Assembly (NCBI GenBank): GCA_025526935.1
Contig: JAHLKD010000100.1
Coordinates: forward strand, 124,001-188,000
DNA: 64,000 nt
From: Cladochytrium replicatum
Taxonomy: Eukaryota; Chytridiomycota; Chytridiomycetes; Cladochytriales; Cladochytriaceae
Direction: 5' to 3'
This document shows positions 55,788-64,000 of this stretch, piece after piece (the stretch's first letter is position 1; each line of letters begins with the position of its first letter). Position numbers and translations under genes: made by a program. The notes below the pieces were generated by a model. The model ran no database searches. It worked only from the letters and a program-made list of their open reading frames with translations, and had not been told where the DNA came from.

Positions 55788-57206
55788 AGCTAAAGAGAAC
55801 AGAGATTGGAGAGATCGAGTTTTCCCTTCATTGACAAGTCAGTGTGCCCATAATCGACTGATTGTCGCTCACTCTAAATGAAACTCCTCGCACTATATTT
55901 ATCACATGTAACAGACTCTTCCTGCCACAGCTCCGTGTTGCGCCTTTAAACTTCAAACCAAGCCCGTTTCATGAACTTTGGGTAAATCAAACCAAGAGAA
56001 TCGCACTTCAGTCATTCTTTATTTGGGGATCCAAGTAGCAAAATAGTTTTGGGACGCTTTCTTAAGTTGGTTATTGAAAATTCAGCAGGAGTCAACGTCA
56101 GTAATGGTGATCTGGGCTCGACTATGCTTGTCTTGGCATCTGCAAACTAGACGACACAGAAACCAACACTCGCAAAGCATTTGCTTGGAAGAGATTCAGA
56201 GAAACAACAAATTTTTGAAAATTAGATCGAATCTGTTTCACGTGACTGTGATCTGGTCCCGCTGAGATTCCGATGTGATCTCTTGGCTCTTTTGACTCTC
56301 CAACTTTCGATCACTTGCTTGGGGCAAGAGCAGCAGCAAGTCGGTGACTTGGCGGAAGCAAGTCGGTGACTTTCCCTCTCTGGGGAATATAAATGGACCC
56401 TGGATCCCTCGCAAACCTCATCCATTTCTCTTTCGAAAATGTCGTATTCCATCTGGCTGTTGCCCCCGTGAATGTCCTGCTTGTAAATGTCCTGGGTGGG
56501 GATAGCATAACCTGAGCAGCACATGTCTACGCTGCACTTCGTCCAACGGAAAATGGCGGACCCACCAGAGTCAGTACCGGGATTGCCGATTGCTCTTCGC
56601 TAAGAGAAATGTTGCGTCTCCTTGGGAGGTACCCTGCCTGGATCTGATTCCATTTCTCGAGGTTGGGAGCGTCAAGCTCTCGCTGCTGGTTTCTGGTCCA
56701 TTTTTCCTGCGGAAGTCCGTCGCGCGCTTCAGTGCGACTGAGCAGGCAGATAGGTACCTCACATGGAATCTGTGACATTGTGGGCACACCATGCCATGAT
56801 GGAATCACATTTTGGAAAAATGTGTCACGAACCTGCTGAAGGAGAAGCCTTGTGATGAGGTTCTATTTCTCGCATATAAGATCCAAATATAATCACATGG
56901 TTCATCGAACAACAATATTCCACATATCCGTTGACTCATGGTAACCGTTGGCGCATCGAGGTTCAGTCCTCCAGTGAAAATAAGTCAATACAAATTTCGC
57001 AAAAGGCAAACTTGTAAGCCCAATGTGAGTATCGTGGGAAGGGTCTACGCTGTTTGGATTGACCGGTTGGATCCACATTGGGAAAAGCGAAAGGTGGCAA
57101 AACAGCTGCACAAGCGTTGGCAGCTGGAATTCATGGGACCGATAATCGCACTCTGGGCAGTATCTAGTACACCAATCGCTGTTAGTGATTCAGATTACTT
57201 TGACAT
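55543..57206 (-). repeat. R1 repeat copy 3, inverted relative to 42537-44209
   Basis: Nearly base-for-base reverse complement of 42537-44209, about 1.66 kb. It includes the eIF3j 3' end, the CAAGTCACCGACTTG tandem and the WIDRLDPHWEKRKVAKQL frame. It lacks the direct repeat at 41459-41706. Similarity is much higher than to copy 2, so the duplication is recent. Confidence 0.88.
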
Positions 57207-57612
57207 CAACTAGAGCAGAACTGCATCTGAAAGTCACGGAGTCATGAGTCGTTGCTGTTGTGTTTTGCAGAGCGATTTCTTGTTGTGGGCATGGTCAAAA
57301 GTGAGCTTTGCAACTTTTCCACTCCATCATGTACAACACGTGTGTGTGAAAACGTCGGTGGTTTCTGACTTCAATGCGGGAAGAGATCAAGATAGAATCA
57401 CGGAGGCAGAGCTTGTGATTGACTTTGGCGGAGGTGAAAAGAGGAAGTTAGCTGTATGATACTTAAAAATCACGTAAAAAAATCATCTTCATTCCCTTTC
57501 AAGCGGCGAGCGGATTTTCTGGTGCTGGAAATCGACAAGTAATTATTTTTTATTCTTCTGTAGTGTAAGTTTTGAAGTGTCCATTTCCCTGCGCCATTTG
57601 AAGTATTTGGAA
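57207..57612. other. Upstream region of VPS36
   Basis: No gene recognised. The frame 57244-57459 shows no known domain. Confidence 0.4.
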
Positions 57613-59613
57613 ATGGACTTCCCGCCGGCTCAGCTGTCGGTTGCGCTGTTGCCTGTGCCTTTGGAGGACGAAATCATCCATTTCACGCAAAACGACGTCG
57701 GTATTTACAAGGGGTATGGTTGGCACCAGATTGTAGCTGTGCATTGGTGTAAATGTTCATCCCAAAGTGCCGAACGCTTGAACGATTACGACAATGGAAC
57801 CGCATACATTACCTCACATCGAATCATTTGGATCGATGCAATCGACCCAAAGTCGAAGAGTTGGGTGATTGAACTTGCGAGAGTCGAATTGTTCACCTCA
57901 ACAGTTAGTTTCAGCGATGATTTTGCGCAATGCATAACTCATACTCGTTACTCGTTCCCAAGGCCGGATACTTGAAACGGTCTGCAAAGCTGGAGCTGAA
58001 AATAAGACCTGAAATTCCCATCAATGACTCACCAAAAGTTGAGCAAACTGACTTATCTAGAACAAAAAACGTCTCAAACAACGTCTGTGCGGTGTGCACC
58101 TTCATAAACCATCCCGACCTCCTGGAATGCGAAATGTGTGGATCATCGCTCGCCGAAGATGTAAAAGTAGTGCACCCGGCAGAAACTTCGGCAACTTCTC
58201 CCGCACCTGGGAGTTCTTCAGCATCGTACTTGAGTTATGTGACGAGTGCGATCGGATTGGGTGCAACGAAGGAGATCGGGGACAATGTATATAAGCTGTC
58301 ATTCCGAAGGGGAGGATGCGACACGTTCACAAAGAGTCTCAAAATGGCACTAGACGCCAAATTGTGGAAGGTTTGCACACACTAAGCTACCGAATCGAAT
58401 TGAAGTTGATTGTGTATTAGGTGAAGAAAAAGAATCAAGGAGGACCATCGGCACCTTCGGGCACCTCCACACCAACGATCTCTTCCGGCTTAGGGGGCAT
58501 TGGTAACGTACTCTGATACTCTCATGTTCGAGAGAAAACGTTAATCTCTCATTCTTCGATATAGCAACCATCATGCAGAGTGTGCAGCAGTCAAAGCAGG
58601 CAATGGATGTGAACTTGACAGAAGCGTTCCGAGATCTCGACGCTCTGATGACAAAAGCATCAGAGATGGTATGGATCACACCATGCATGCGACACATCAC
58701 AAACTGACCATTGGTCTCTGTTTGATGACAAGAATAGGTCAAACTGGCAGAATCTATCAGCGCGAAGCTTGCCGGGGCAGGATCTGGGGCGAGCGGTGCA
58801 AGTTCATCCGAGATGCGCGCATTTCAAGGTTATTTGGTAGAGCTTGGAATATCAAATCCCGTCACCAAGTAAGATTTGCCTGCGTCGTCCTTTTGTCAAT
58901 TTCCTAACAGATGATTGTGAAAGGCAGTCTGCGGGCGACTTGTTTTCACAAGAGCTTGCAAGACAGCTGTCGGAATTTCTTGATAAAGCGCTTTCTAGAA
59001 CTGGCGGCATGATGGGTTTGACGGACCTGTACTGTCTGTTCAATAGGGCACGCGGCGTTGGTACGATCACCCCCAATCATTGTGAAGCATGCACTAACGC
59101 ACTGCAGAGCTGATATCTCCCGAGGACCTTCACCGATCGTGCTCAATGTTTGATCAACTAGGCTTGCCATTTAGACTACGAGAGTTTGAAAGCGGTCTGC
59201 TCGTGGTTCATTCAAATATCCAAACATCTGTTGTCTGACCCGCACACCACCAATTCTTTTTGTTTGTTTATCTTGACTCTTTCATCACTTCGATTTAGCG
59301 ACGAAGCGTCAGCCCAGAAAGTCAGGGACTTTGTGGTGAAGAACGCAAAAGTGACGGCGTTTGAGTTTGCCCGAGCTGAAGACATCCCCGTTGTGCTTGC
59401 CAGTGAATATCTATTGGTAAGTGAATAGAGCTTTACCGTCGAGATTATATCATCAATGGCTTACTTTAACTTTAATTCAAGATCGCAGAGAAGAGAGGAC
59501 TTGTGTGCAGAGACGAGAGTTTGGAAGGGCTGGTGTTTTATGATAATCTTATTTGTCAGGTTTCCTTGAACGAAGCAGGACAAGGCGATAAAGTACCATT
59601 GAACACATATTAA
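57613..59613 (+). CDS. VPS36: ESCRT-II subunit Vps36
   Basis: The ATG at 57613 follows an in-frame GTG that was not chosen; TAA at 59611-59613. Multi-exon. The N-terminal GLUE domain (IIHFTQNDVGIYKG, ITSHRIIWIDA, SWVIELARVELF) binds phosphoinositides and ubiquitin. An inserted NZF-type zinc finger follows, with four cysteines in CAVCTFIN and LECEMCGSS. The EAP30 region has TIMQSVQQSKQAMDVNLTEA, FRDLDALMTKASEMVKLAES, LTDLYCLFNRARG, LISPEDL and winged-helix segments up to SEYLL and IAEKRGLVCRDESLEGL. ESCRT-II sorts ubiquitinated membrane proteins into multivesicular bodies. The NZF insertion is also known in budding yeast Vps36. Confidence 0.9.
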
Positions 59614-60981
59614 TAGATCAGAGCAGCCATGGTACACCTCTGTAATTTTGGTGTTCACTTGATGACGTTTTACGCTTGTCTAGTCAATATCATCTTCAAC
59701 TTTACGACTAGAAGGCTCAACGACAGTAATGGAAACGTGACTTAGGGGTTAGTGAAACACAACATTGTGATCAAGGGGGATTAAATCATTGTGCTTTGCC
59801 CATTCGCATTAATGCTCAACAGAGTTCTGCGTTTGACCGGGCCCATCACATTCGATGTGCTTCACTGATCACACGATATTTCTGGAGCGAACCTTGAAAA
59901 CTGGTTCAAAAAGCAACATACTCTGGCGCGCCGAGTTTTCTGACTTTAACAAGATCACAAGCTCCAATGCGTCCGAGTTGGTCTGCATACGGCTCGAACG
60001 GGTAACCATCAGTTTCAGAATCCCTGAGAGTTCATTGCTTCGTGAAAGACATTAGCAGCGTGAGACCGCACAGCCGTTATTACATTAGAGAATTAAGCAA
60101 TCGCTCCGACTTTACCAAGCTCGAAGAATTGCTCCTTCATCCTCGAAAAGCATCTCTGCTCCAAACTCCAACGCATGGACCTCTCCGATATGGCGCAGCT
60201 CGCCAATGGCAAAACTCACGGGCGTCGCAGATCCGTCACGAGCGCATGCTTCAGCTCAAAGAGAGCCTGCTTGACAATCTCGACCGCACGATCGACGACA
60301 GGTGAAGATCGTTCGCCAGACATCCGTGTTGAAACTGAACGAGTTTATGGAGCGGATGGATTTGTTCTCCAATGGTGTGGAGTGCTTGGGCGCTATTTAT
60401 TTTGTGGCAGTACGCCAGGACGCTTCGGAACACGGCGTACCGCTACACGACGCAGCGGCTTCGAAGATGCGAGGACTTTGCAGCTAATGCGTCGAGAGTG
60501 TGCAACAGGCCACCGAGAGACTCGAGGAAGCGCCCAAGATCGACCCTTTGATCATCTATTCTGCCTTTGACGAGAGCTCGAGCGGAGGTGCAGGTGAAGG
60601 ACTCAAGCGCGGGATCTCCATTTCGGATAGCATGGCGGAATTTGGCGCGACCAACAACAACGATGTCTGGCCCTCCTATTGGCGTGACTGGCACGGCGTT
60701 GTCAAGGAGCGCGTACAATTCACGTAGCGGATTCAGCGGTACAAAGTTGCTCAATTATTAATATGGACATCAACGACAACGGGAAACACTCGGTCGCAAG
60801 GGGACGGACGGCGTCGATTCAATGGAAGATCGAATACGGTTGCATTGCAGTGATCGTCCAAACAGATTCTATTACGTTTGATAATGTTGGTTGTTCCACT
60901 TCGTTGGTTTCTCTGGTTGCCCCAAGCCACACACAATTCCCACCCAAACCACATCCACAAGCAACGAATCGCTCGATCTCA
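59614..60981. other. Intergenic stretch with an unrecognised, possibly broken gene at about 60110-60730
   Basis: Between 60110 and 60730 the plus strand has coding-like frames that change phase: IRHERMLQLKESLLDNLDRT, then VLKLNEFMERMDLFSNGVEC, then VQQATERLEEAPKIDPLIIY. They could be exons of one small helical protein or a decayed gene. The helical, Leu-rich character suggests a coiled-coil subunit, but I do not recognise the family. 59614-60100 shows nothing. Confidence 0.4.
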
Positions 60982-63900
60982 ATGGGAAACTCTCAGTCGC
61001 AGCAGACCGAATTCTTCAACGTCTGCGCTGAACACGCTGGAAAACAGGTCATCTTGACAATCTACGAAGACAGGACGATCGCCAGCTTGGAGAAGGAAGT
61101 ACGTGGTCTCCACATTGCGGACTTTTGCCCTGACGATTATTCCAGTTGAGGGCTGAATGCGACATCGGCGACGCGGAATTTATGGTGCATGCACTGCTGG
61201 ATGGGATTCGGAAGCGGCTCAAGTACAACGAAGATGTGGAAGCGATGGTCGAGGGTCGAATGTTCGGATCATCGGCGAAGACTCCCACCCTTATCGTTGA
61301 GCTCTTAGAAGCGAATGCAACTGTGCCAATTACGCCGCAAACGAATCCTGCTACTCCGATCGCGAGTCCATCATCATGTGCAGAATCCCAGTTTGCGACT
61401 GGTGAAACTTTTGATCTGATGCTGTCCTACCAGTGAGTAACGAAAATATTTCTCAGTTAATATTTACTCATTCCGTTTAATAGGTGGGACAGCAAAAAAA
61501 AGGTGCATCGCATTTATGATGAGCTCACTGCGAGCGGACTCAAAGTCTGGATGGACAAAGACCAAATGAGCGGCGACGTTTACAAACGCATGACCGAAGC
61601 GGTGAAGAACAGCAAAGTCTTCTCTCCTTGCCTGACCTTGGCTTATTCAGTAATTCTTCAACTCATTTCTGTTTCGAATGAAAATTTGACTCTTTTCATT
61701 TCAGCAATCTTACAATTGTTTGGGAGAGATAAAGTACGCACACGTGCTTCGGAAGACAATGGTCCCAAACTTGCTTTGGAAACCCCTGCCAACCACACCA
61801 ATGGATGAAATCTTTGCTGAACTTAACGAAGTCGGCTTTATGACTGCTGGCCTGTTGTTTGTGGATTTCTCCATGGTTGAGCCTGGTCAATTCGAATGGG
61901 CAGAGAAAATGTCACACCTGACAAAAGAGATCAAAAAGCAACTTTTGGACATAAGACCTTCAGATGGTGCCTCAACTTGTTCAACAATGCACCCACCTCC
62001 ACCAGTATTGTCTGTTAAGCCGAAAAAAGCAGATGCTCTGAAAGAATGGCTCAAGCCAGTTGACTTTGAACCTGATCTGCGAGCTTATGCAGAGTCATAT
62101 GTTAGAGGAACACGTCACTGGCTTCTTGAGAGGATCAATAACTGGATTGCTGGCCCTGATTCCAGTCAAGTGATGTGGTTCCGTGGTGGGGCAGGAGTTG
62201 GGAAATCCATTATGGCATGGTTTATTGGTGCCTATTTAAGTCATAGCCTATCAAAGCATGTAGAGGATTCCTTGGAGATTGATCGACCAGTCGAAACTCT
62301 TCTTGGGGCTCAGTTCTTCTGCAAGTATAATGACAGTCTCAAAAATGATCCCCATTGCGTGATTCAATCAATTGCTCATCAGCTATCTTTGTTTGATTCT
62401 CGAATTCAAATATACCTATCCGAACTCTGTAATAAGGATCTCGAAAAAAAACCATCATTATTAGACTTAGATATCCTGACCAAGTTTGACAAACTTGTGC
62501 TTGAACCCCTTAGGCAGATTGATGCTCACCAAGGAACAGGTCAAACGATTGTGATTATTTTGGATGCACTTGATGAATGTGGAAAAGTTGGAGGGAAAGC
62601 CCGGAAAGGATTATTATCAGCTCTTGCTAACACTACCAAAAAGATGCCAAAGAATGTGAAGCTTCTGGTCTCCGCCAGGCCAGAACCAGATGTTTTCTCC
62701 ATCCTTCATAACATTCGCTGTACCGAGCTCCACCTAACTGATGAAGACAACTTGAAGGATATTAAAGTCTACGCACACGAGCGCCTTAAAATCTATCTTG
62801 GAACCAACAAAAAGCTGCTAGATGAAGCAATTGACCATCTCAGTGCTGCAGCAGATGGAGTCTTTGTTTGGATGCAGCTTGCGTGTGATTATATCAGATC
62901 AAAATCTCACAAAAATGAAGCTGAAGCTATGTCTGTCATATCAGCACAGGGCAGAGGTGTGGACTCAATGTATCAACAGCTCTTGGAAAATGCCCTTCAG
63001 AATACTGGAGGGTCAGCTGAGAATTTCAGAAGAGTGTTTGGAATGCTGTGTGTTGTCAGAGTAACTGTTTGTTACTTTGAATGTATTGGCTGAGCTGCTC
63101 AATATGGAAGAAACCCTTGTATCAGCTGAGCTACTCCGCTATAGGTTTTTGATTGAGATAATGTCAAGTGGCGCAATCAAGTTTATGCACAAGAGTGTCA
63201 GTGATTTCTTGACCAATTCCAGCCATTGCAGTGATTCTAGGTTTTCAATTGATTTATCCATTTATGAGACAATAATTCTTGACCGATGCTTGGATATCAT
63301 GATGTCAGGTCTTTTTGCAAACATTGGTGACTTGAGTTCTACAAGAATCTATGAGAAAATACCTCCTTCTGTGCTGGAAACGATCCCCAAAACTCTCACA
63401 TATTGCTGTTGTTATTGGATTGAGCATTTTCTTTGGATATCTGACATTTCCTCAGACGGATTAAGTAAAATATACAGCTTTTGCAAAACACATCTTCTGT
63501 CTTGGGGAGAGGTTATGATTATCAATCAGGCTATTCAGACTATGATTGGGCAATTAGAGAAAATTTCTTCCAAAATTGCAATGGTGAACAAGATGCCAGA
63601 CGACATCAGTATCATAACTGTGACAGAAGCAGGTGTAGGTAGGGCAGATACTAGTTTTCTAAATCCAAGGGCAACAGCAACAAATTTCATTGAAAACATT
63701 TCAGTAGATCTTGCAAGATTTTACGAGTACAATCTGGTTCCTATCTCGAAGTCTCCACTTCAGGTTTACTTCACAGGATTGGCGTGCTGTCCCACAAAAT
63801 CCCAGCTATGGAAAACATACAAAGGTATTCTTAATGGACCGTTCTCTTCAGTCAAACATACTATTGGCAGAGAACTGTCTTGGAGTCCACAACTCTGGAC

Positions 63901-64000
63901 ACATCGACTTTCAAACAGGTGTAGTTTTGTGACTTACTCTCCTGATGGAACGATGATTGCAACAGCAACAGCAGAAGACATAATCATACTTGATATGGAG
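60982..64000 (+). CDS. TIR-NACHT-WD40 STAND (NLR-like) protein, 3' end beyond window
   Basis: Exons 60982-61098, 61146-61432, 61484-61649 and 61705 onward keep frame. The N-terminus MGNSQSQQ fits an N-myristoylation motif. A TIR domain spans about 126-250: FDLMLSYQWD, GLKVWMDKDQMSG, SYNCLGEIKYA with the likely NADase Glu at 198. The NACHT NTPase has Walker A GGAGVGKS (351-358) and Walker B LDALDEC (476-482), preceded by the fungal lead-in ESYVRGTRHWLLERI. After a helical region a WD40 blade begins (SFVTYSPDGTMIATAT). Such proteins oligomerise on ligand binding and signal through the effector; NAD+ cleavage and cell death are known outcomes for TIR relatives, and their use here is inference. 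At about 63065-63090 the frame breaks (stop TGA at 63091-63093) while the next frame continues the family sequence. Confidence 0.85.

Follow-up and report, generated by a model that had tools for sequence, protein, structure and literature searches.

A probably decayed TIR-NACHT gene of the chytrid Cladochytrium replicatum belongs to a large, diversifying family of NLR-type genes

The TIR-NB-LRR receptors of plants are built in the order TIR, nucleotide-binding domain, repeats, and TRAM (TICAM2), a mammalian TIR adaptor, is myristoylated. Among fungi, the NWD/HNWD family of Podospora anserina (het-d, het-e and het-r; HET-NACHT-WD40) is described in the available text of PMC1805685 as having ten members. 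Codons 7, 9, 25 and 27 of its WD40 repeats, which lie at the top of the propeller and flank conserved codons 8 and 26, are reported there to be under positive selection (PMC1805685, PMC2873952). Putative integrated decoys have been described in Sordariales NLRs, among them a CHK-2-derived kinase (PMC12258605, in the part available).

In the accessible sections of two papers, NLRs with TIR domains are noted for plants, bacteria and Chytridiomycota (PMC9815663), fungal TIR NLRs are treated as a small group (PMC10197012), and TIR-like ones are mentioned for Pezizomycotina (PMC9815663, PMC10197012). The initial annotation of the locus considered here, which was made from the DNA letters and regarded a TIR effector as atypical for fungi, has to be corrected on this point, since fungal TIR NLRs were already mentioned in print (PMC9815663, same sections). 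As regards chytrids themselves, the available part of a 2014 survey gives no NLRs for them (PMC4986451) and that of PMC12881547 does not mention them; NACHT genes of Mortierellomycota are said in the text available to be shared with endosymbionts (PMC11291939). Among the papers listed in a literature search, which took in few subscription papers and no bioRxiv preprints, none described a TIR-NACHT family of chytrids, a TIR NLR with a myristoylation signal or a WW decoy, nor did any deal with the family size, acylation motif, diversification or decoy reported below.

The gene under study lies at the end of the window, by which we mean the whole 64,000-nucleotide stretch analysed (contig JAHLKD010000100.1, positions 124,001 to 188,000). 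Its model, on the plus strand as are the parts of the gene and the upstream element given below, has four exons and is clean to base 63093. Exon 1 (60982-61098) encodes residues 1-39, comprising a candidate N-myristoylation signal, MGNSQS, and the start of an N-terminal domain; the MGNSQS start proposed in the initial annotation is confirmed at 60982. Exon 2 (61146-61432) carries the remainder of the N-terminal domain, a variable linker and the start of the TIR, exon 3 (61484-61649) the middle of the TIR, and exon 4 (61705 onward; as it stands, 61705-63093) the end of the TIR, a linker and the NACHT domain, up to a stop at 63091-63093. Three GT-AG introns of 47, 51 and 55 bp (61099-61145, 61433-61483 and 61650-61704) join the TIR and NACHT parts in a single open frame. 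The first has counterparts in paralogs, and introns of 48-57 bp are present at all three places in 14 of the 16 other long models, an agreement in place that is partly built in because our script sought introns only near those three places. The exceptions are the copies on contigs C81 (74, 58 and 62 bp) and C66 (56, 53 and 102 bp), the C66 model being doubtful in its third intron and missing about 16 TIR residues.

The earlier expectation of a TIR profile match within residues 126-250 was borne out by a TIR_2 domain at residues 131-215 (61419-61779, a span that takes in introns 2 and 3), which matches PF13676 with an E-value of 7.6e-14, scoring 52.7 bits where 28 are required. On the window copy the plain TIR model, PF01582, reaches 12.2 bits, under its cut-off of 21.3. 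The TIR is followed, in the order originally proposed, by a NACHT-type NPHP3_N domain (62107-62679; PF24883, E 1.8e-26) that was found in the same place in the genome search, the plain NACHT model falling just below its cut-off (E 6.9e-6, 26.4 bits against 26.7). Walker A (GGAGVGKS, 62185-62208) and Walker B (LDALDE, 62560-62577) are both complete, as had been claimed. Pfam finds no HET domain in the window copy at E-values up to 1. Membership of the HNWD family was considered and dropped: because TIR_2 is present and HET is not found, the gene is not filed there.

The window gene is one of about 40 loci of a large, diversifying family rather than a lone gene. Across the 50.5 Mb genome (198 contigs), a protein query comprising the N-terminal and TIR parts gave at least 172 matches, exons being counted singly, and the NPHP3_N profile at least 59. 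Among the 59 NPHP3_N matches listed, 41 have a TIR match no more than 2.6 kb upstream on the same strand, which makes TIR-NACHT the commonest NACHT type in this genome; the other 18 lack a TIR. Viewed from the other side, 40 of 46 TIR loci, hand-picked from the matches listed in two genome searches, have such a NACHT match and six have none; all counts from the genome searches are lower bounds. Just over half of the 41 TIR-NACHT matches (21) lie in open frames of at least 900 aa, and contigs C61 and C63 together hold 24 of them. As a separate observation, one NACHT match (C78:102246-104451) is preceded on its own strand, at a distance of 1.3 kb, by one of the genome's at least 19 HET matches; HET-NACHT may therefore coexist with TIR-NACHT in one genome.

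The DNA fetched for closer study merged into 22 loci, of which 21 were modelled (that on C74 was left out); 17 models of at least 600 aa, among them that of the window copy and two whose frames end after 643 and 670 aa, were used for conservation. In all 17, residues G2, S6, E198, K357, S358, D477, D480 and E481 are identical, so that the Walker A (K357, S358) and Walker B (D477, D480, E481) residues typical of NLR/STAND proteins are present throughout. Pooled dN/dS over 15 copies (C66 and C81 excluded) is 0.23 in exon 1, 0.28 in residues 40-95, 0.17 in the TIR and 0.19 in the NACHT domain, with 0.44 and 0.50 in the first and second linkers; one of the copies compared (C71:22.7-26.0 kb) seems to go out of frame just short of where the comparison ends, an effect that could only inflate the NACHT dN.

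Closest relatives within the family differ by domain. Distance matrices correlate between domains with r = 0.43-0.62, and the TIR and the second part of the NACHT domain with 0.14 only; for the window copy, the closest relative is a C61 copy over the N-terminal part, a C63 copy over the TIR and a C38 copy over the NACHT domain. The simple reading of these distances is that mosaic copies arise by gene conversion or unequal exchange. The DNA upstream of the window copy (60001-60981) has at most 60 aligned bases in common with any of the 21 paralog loci. A GCCACAC element nonetheless stands at 60926-60932, 56 bases 5' of the start, and by pattern count 19 of 21 copies have the same element 29-72 bases 5' of the start, with a TGCC motif coming after it in 14 of the 21; the 64 kb window holds just five matches on both strands, this one included. 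Being conserved amid upstream DNA that otherwise aligns poorly, GCCACAC is a possible shared promoter element. Among the window copy's neighbours, the gene upstream (57921-59620) looks Vps36-like by eye, with a Zn_ribbon_RanBP match below cut-off (E 0.0018), and downstream lie the remains of a hAT transposase (Dimer_Tnp_hAT, E 5.2e-20) and LINE-like reverse transcriptases, the second of these recognised by eye (L009 6185-7811 and L010 271-4706).

The NLR/STAND architecture of TIR, NACHT and WD40 occurs in one frame in ten extended paralog models and is broken in the window copy. Here the NACHT frame stops at 63091-63093 and likely continues in another frame, as a post-NACHT part (63065-64000) that leaves the window toward the WD40 array and matches no Pfam family within it. 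The array itself starts just past base 64000, where the contig sequence yields it in two pieces (E 5.6e-35 and 1.9e-41, L009), split by a second lesion, an in-frame stop beyond the window end. The original claim that TIR, NACHT and WD40 belong to one gene consequently stands for the first two, which share one spliced frame, while the WD40 repeats lie outside the window and behind a broken frame. A 34-base intron, sought by eye, was considered as the cause of the post-NACHT break and dropped, being shorter than any modelled intron. Because the frame is lost after the NACHT domain and a further stop interrupts the WD40 array, the window copy is probably a pseudogene that has lost its function. 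The initial annotation missed both lesions.

It might be argued that both lesions are assembly errors and that the window copy is intact in life and works like the open copies. The whole gene has just two disabling sites, its conserved residues are kept and its model is clean up to 63093, all of which would suit such an explanation. It would, however, require two separate errors within one gene of an assembly that reads eight of ten extended paralogs through to a stop at 1,347-1,588 aa, the other two being still open where the DNA ends, one of them over N bases. Moreover, seven of the 21 modelled copies, one of them the window copy, reach a stop short of 680 aa, as copies in a birth-and-death family would, although early stops in some models may stem from forced splice choices; in one such case (C61:150-154 kb) the model stops early yet the NACHT domain sits in a 1,313-aa open frame. 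We regard assembly error as unlikely and continue to read the window copy as a probable pseudogene.

The TIR domain has a candidate catalytic residue in Glu198 (61726-61728), the Glu of NCLGEIKYA, and the proposal of this residue is strengthened by its identity in all 17 models. Compared with solved structures, the TIR profile matches Cat1 with an E-value of 0.0069; its matches to flax resistance-protein chains (7vu8, 0.27; L6, 0.43), to the TIR protein 3h16 (0.48), to the ADP-ribosyl cyclase 7xoz (0.54 and 0.55) and to RPP1 (1.1) are not significant, and an unrelated hydrolase also appears in the list (E 1.4). In these weak matches Glu198 falls opposite the Glu of the Cat1 motif CWDEL and, in two flax chains, that of WCLMEL, a residue which we take to be catalytic in both; against the 7xoz chains the aligner placed it elsewhere.

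A TIR of this kind could instead lack NADase activity and serve as a scaffold for the recruitment of another TIR protein, in the manner of animal adaptors. Possible partners exist, for the genome has at least 71 TIR_2 matches, and none of the 16 looked at outside the family adjoins a listed NACHT match. The invariance of Glu198 in 17 of 17 models and its alignment with the Glu of Cat1 and two flax TIR chains nevertheless speak against a purely structural role, and we consider the scaffold explanation doubtful beside that of a TIR enzyme. With respect to the stand-alone TIR_2 proteins themselves (L041-L060), some are alike (on C62 and C99), and in one the TIR is followed by what appear by eye to be SEL1-like repeats (L056).

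N-myristoylation follows a rule of Gly at position 2 and a small residue at position 6. All 17 models conform to it, with Gly2 and Ser6, including that of the divergent C81 copy, which starts MGQAQSEP and whose identity to every other copy over residues 1-95 is 0.44 or less; the genome also contains an NMT gene. The earlier suggestion that the protein may be myristoylated has gained support in this way, and attachment of the lipid itself is predicted from the motif. A different explanation would have the MG start kept for reasons other than myristoylation, the receptors being soluble. Exon 1 is fairly conserved throughout, with a mean pairwise identity of 0.69 across the 17 models, and an in-frame ATG precedes the MG in four of 21 copies, among them the window copy, in which it lies 73 codons before; the remaining 17 have none. 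Against this, G2 and S6 survive in a copy as divergent as that on C81, and we judge soluble receptors somewhat less probable still than either of the two alternatives above, favouring membrane-tethered ones.

The N-terminal domain possibly adopts a ubiquitin-like fold. When 12 members were compared with Pfam, three matched OTU1_UBXL (best E 0.018), three NPL4 (0.054) and two Crinkler (0.057), none significantly, and Enoyl_reductase (0.026) and Gemin7 (0.047) score like the ubiquitin-like families; against the PDB, an enoyl-CoA hydratase (0.064) comes ahead of ISG15 (0.33), neither being significant.

That the genome is fungal, as the initial annotation had it, is supported by at least 22 Chitin_synth_1 matches, with none in 14 control genomes, and at least six IFT57 matches, mostly at one locus, with three of the 14 control genomes giving matches and none of these above cut-off; together they fit a flagellated, chytrid-like fungus. 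A recent bacterial import or contamination, which the occurrence of TIR-NACHT proteins in bacteria and PADLOC matches to TIR models of bacteria (best 2.2e-5) might bring to mind, is very improbable and was dropped, for the family's genes are spliced and spread over 15 contigs, the genome also encodes IFT57 and chitin synthases, the PADLOC matches are weak, and a scan of prokaryote genomes with two short peptide patterns confirmed no relative among 101 matches.

Variation in the WD40 repeats is concentrated at a few positions. We located units by their two Trp residues only, obtaining 90 units of 42 positions from nine copies; C81 was excluded, although the same five positions lead if it is included. 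The four most variable positions are 11, 13, 29 and 31, followed by position 10 in fifth place, and 78 distinct combinations of variable residues occur in the 90 units. These four positions have a pN/pS of 1.13 (1.03-1.23 when genes are bootstrapped, with 50 of 50 replicates above 1), compared with 0.66 (0.59-0.79) at the other WD40 positions and 0.23 at positions 12 and 30. These values come from the two-Trp anchoring, used in place of a fixed-position pattern that biased low its control ratios (0.41, and 0.06 at positions 12 and 30). That diversifying selection acts on this propeller face is likely but falls short of demonstration, because the ratio is barely above 1 and synonymous change is high (pS 0.53). 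From the offset of 18 between the two pairs, and from the V and D conserved inside them, we infer that positions 11, 13, 29 and 31 are the counterparts of Podospora codons 7, 9, 25 and 27. Repeats are almost as alike between genes (0.772) as within them (0.797; 61 units, stricter pattern), as is expected if repeats are exchanged. One copy (C61:84-87 kb) has short WD40 insertions such as DRLSYDN in the turn where variable positions 29-31 are located.

One paralog, on C80 (about 56-61 kb; 56001-61302; L076, L081, L085), adds two WW domains to the TIR-NACHT-WD40 plan, one inside the WD40 array (WW, E 9.4e-13) and one after it. The inner WW lies between LEDHS and HSGPVYSV, beside variable positions 10-13, and across 115 bases the two WW copies agree to 98%. 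WW plus linker is 88% identical in amino acids over 57 residues to genes on C55 and C32, with nucleotide identities of 90.6-93.6% to the C55 gene and 83.5-87.2% to that on C32; the C32 locus (L082) has C2, WW and HECT domains by Pfam, and the C55 locus was judged by eye. At least 14 such matches occur in the genome, two in the C80 NLR, ten on C32 and C55 and two on C13 and C15, and none of the other 12 listed lies at a listed NACHT match. The similarity suggests that the C80 WW domains derive from an Rsp5/NEDD4-like ligase gene, the direction of copying being inferred, and makes them a candidate integrated decoy.

Taking all of this together, we would put at about 0.62 the probability that the window gene is a decayed member of an NLR-type family whose intact members are membrane-tethered non-self sensors signalling through a TIR enzyme. 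In such a receptor, N-myristoylated Gly2 would provide the tether to the membrane and the variable face of the WD40 propeller would bind a non-self or altered-self ligand. The ATP-bound NACHT domain might then oligomerise and pack the TIR domains together, which could switch on NAD+ cleavage via Glu198 and so either kill the cell or yield a nucleotide signal. A bolder and decidedly tentative version, to which we give rather long odds, would have a surveillance repertoire resembling that of plants, with about 40 membrane-tethered TIR NLRs whose WD40 faces are diversified by repeat exchange and selection and which can acquire parts of the cell's proteins as bait; in one of them the bait would be the WW of the Rsp5/NEDD4-like ligase, placed next to the recognition face and sensing invaders whose PPxY motifs let them hijack the ligase.

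Since a TIR-NACHT family displays the same focused WD40 variability as het-d and het-e, these results suggest that this principle of recognition extends beyond Dikarya and is independent of the HET domain. The family also provides a system for asking whether defence, rather than heterokaryon incompatibility, was the original role of fungal NLRs. Should acylation and NADase activity both prove true, plant-type TIR signalling would be joined to a membrane anchor in fungi.

How, then, does the family compare with known systems? It resembles TRAM/TICAM2 in being a TIR protein with an N-terminal myristoylation signal (a candidate one here) and differs in that TRAM/TICAM2 is an adaptor with neither NACHT nor WD40. 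With the plant TIR-NB-LRR proteins flax L6 and RPP1 it shares domain order and, in the flax chains, a Glu in the matching place, whereas it has NACHT rather than NB-ARC and WD40 rather than LRR. As in the Sordariales decoys, in the available text of PMC12258605, a domain of a host protein appears to have been copied into a fungal NLR; there it is a CHK-2-derived kinase, whereas here it would be the WW of an Rsp5/NEDD4-like ligase placed in the WD40 array of one paralog, and the main text of that paper, its table of 185 extra domains apart, does not contain the term 'WW domain'. The TIR NLRs of Chytridiomycota and Pezizomycotina likewise have a TIR at the N-terminus of a fungal NLR; the family described here departs from those accounts, as far as their available sections go, in its size, MG start, WD40 diversification and integrated domain (PMC9815663, PMC10197012). 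HNWD, as the accessible text describes it, is likewise a multi-copy NACHT-WD40 family with very similar WD40 repeats that vary at four matching top-face positions, and with inactivated members (PMC1805685). Unlike HNWD, the Cladochytrium family has TIR_2 in place of HET, a candidate myristoylation signal and an additional N-terminal domain, and it numbers about 40 loci against ten members, apparently outside Dikarya (PMC1805685).
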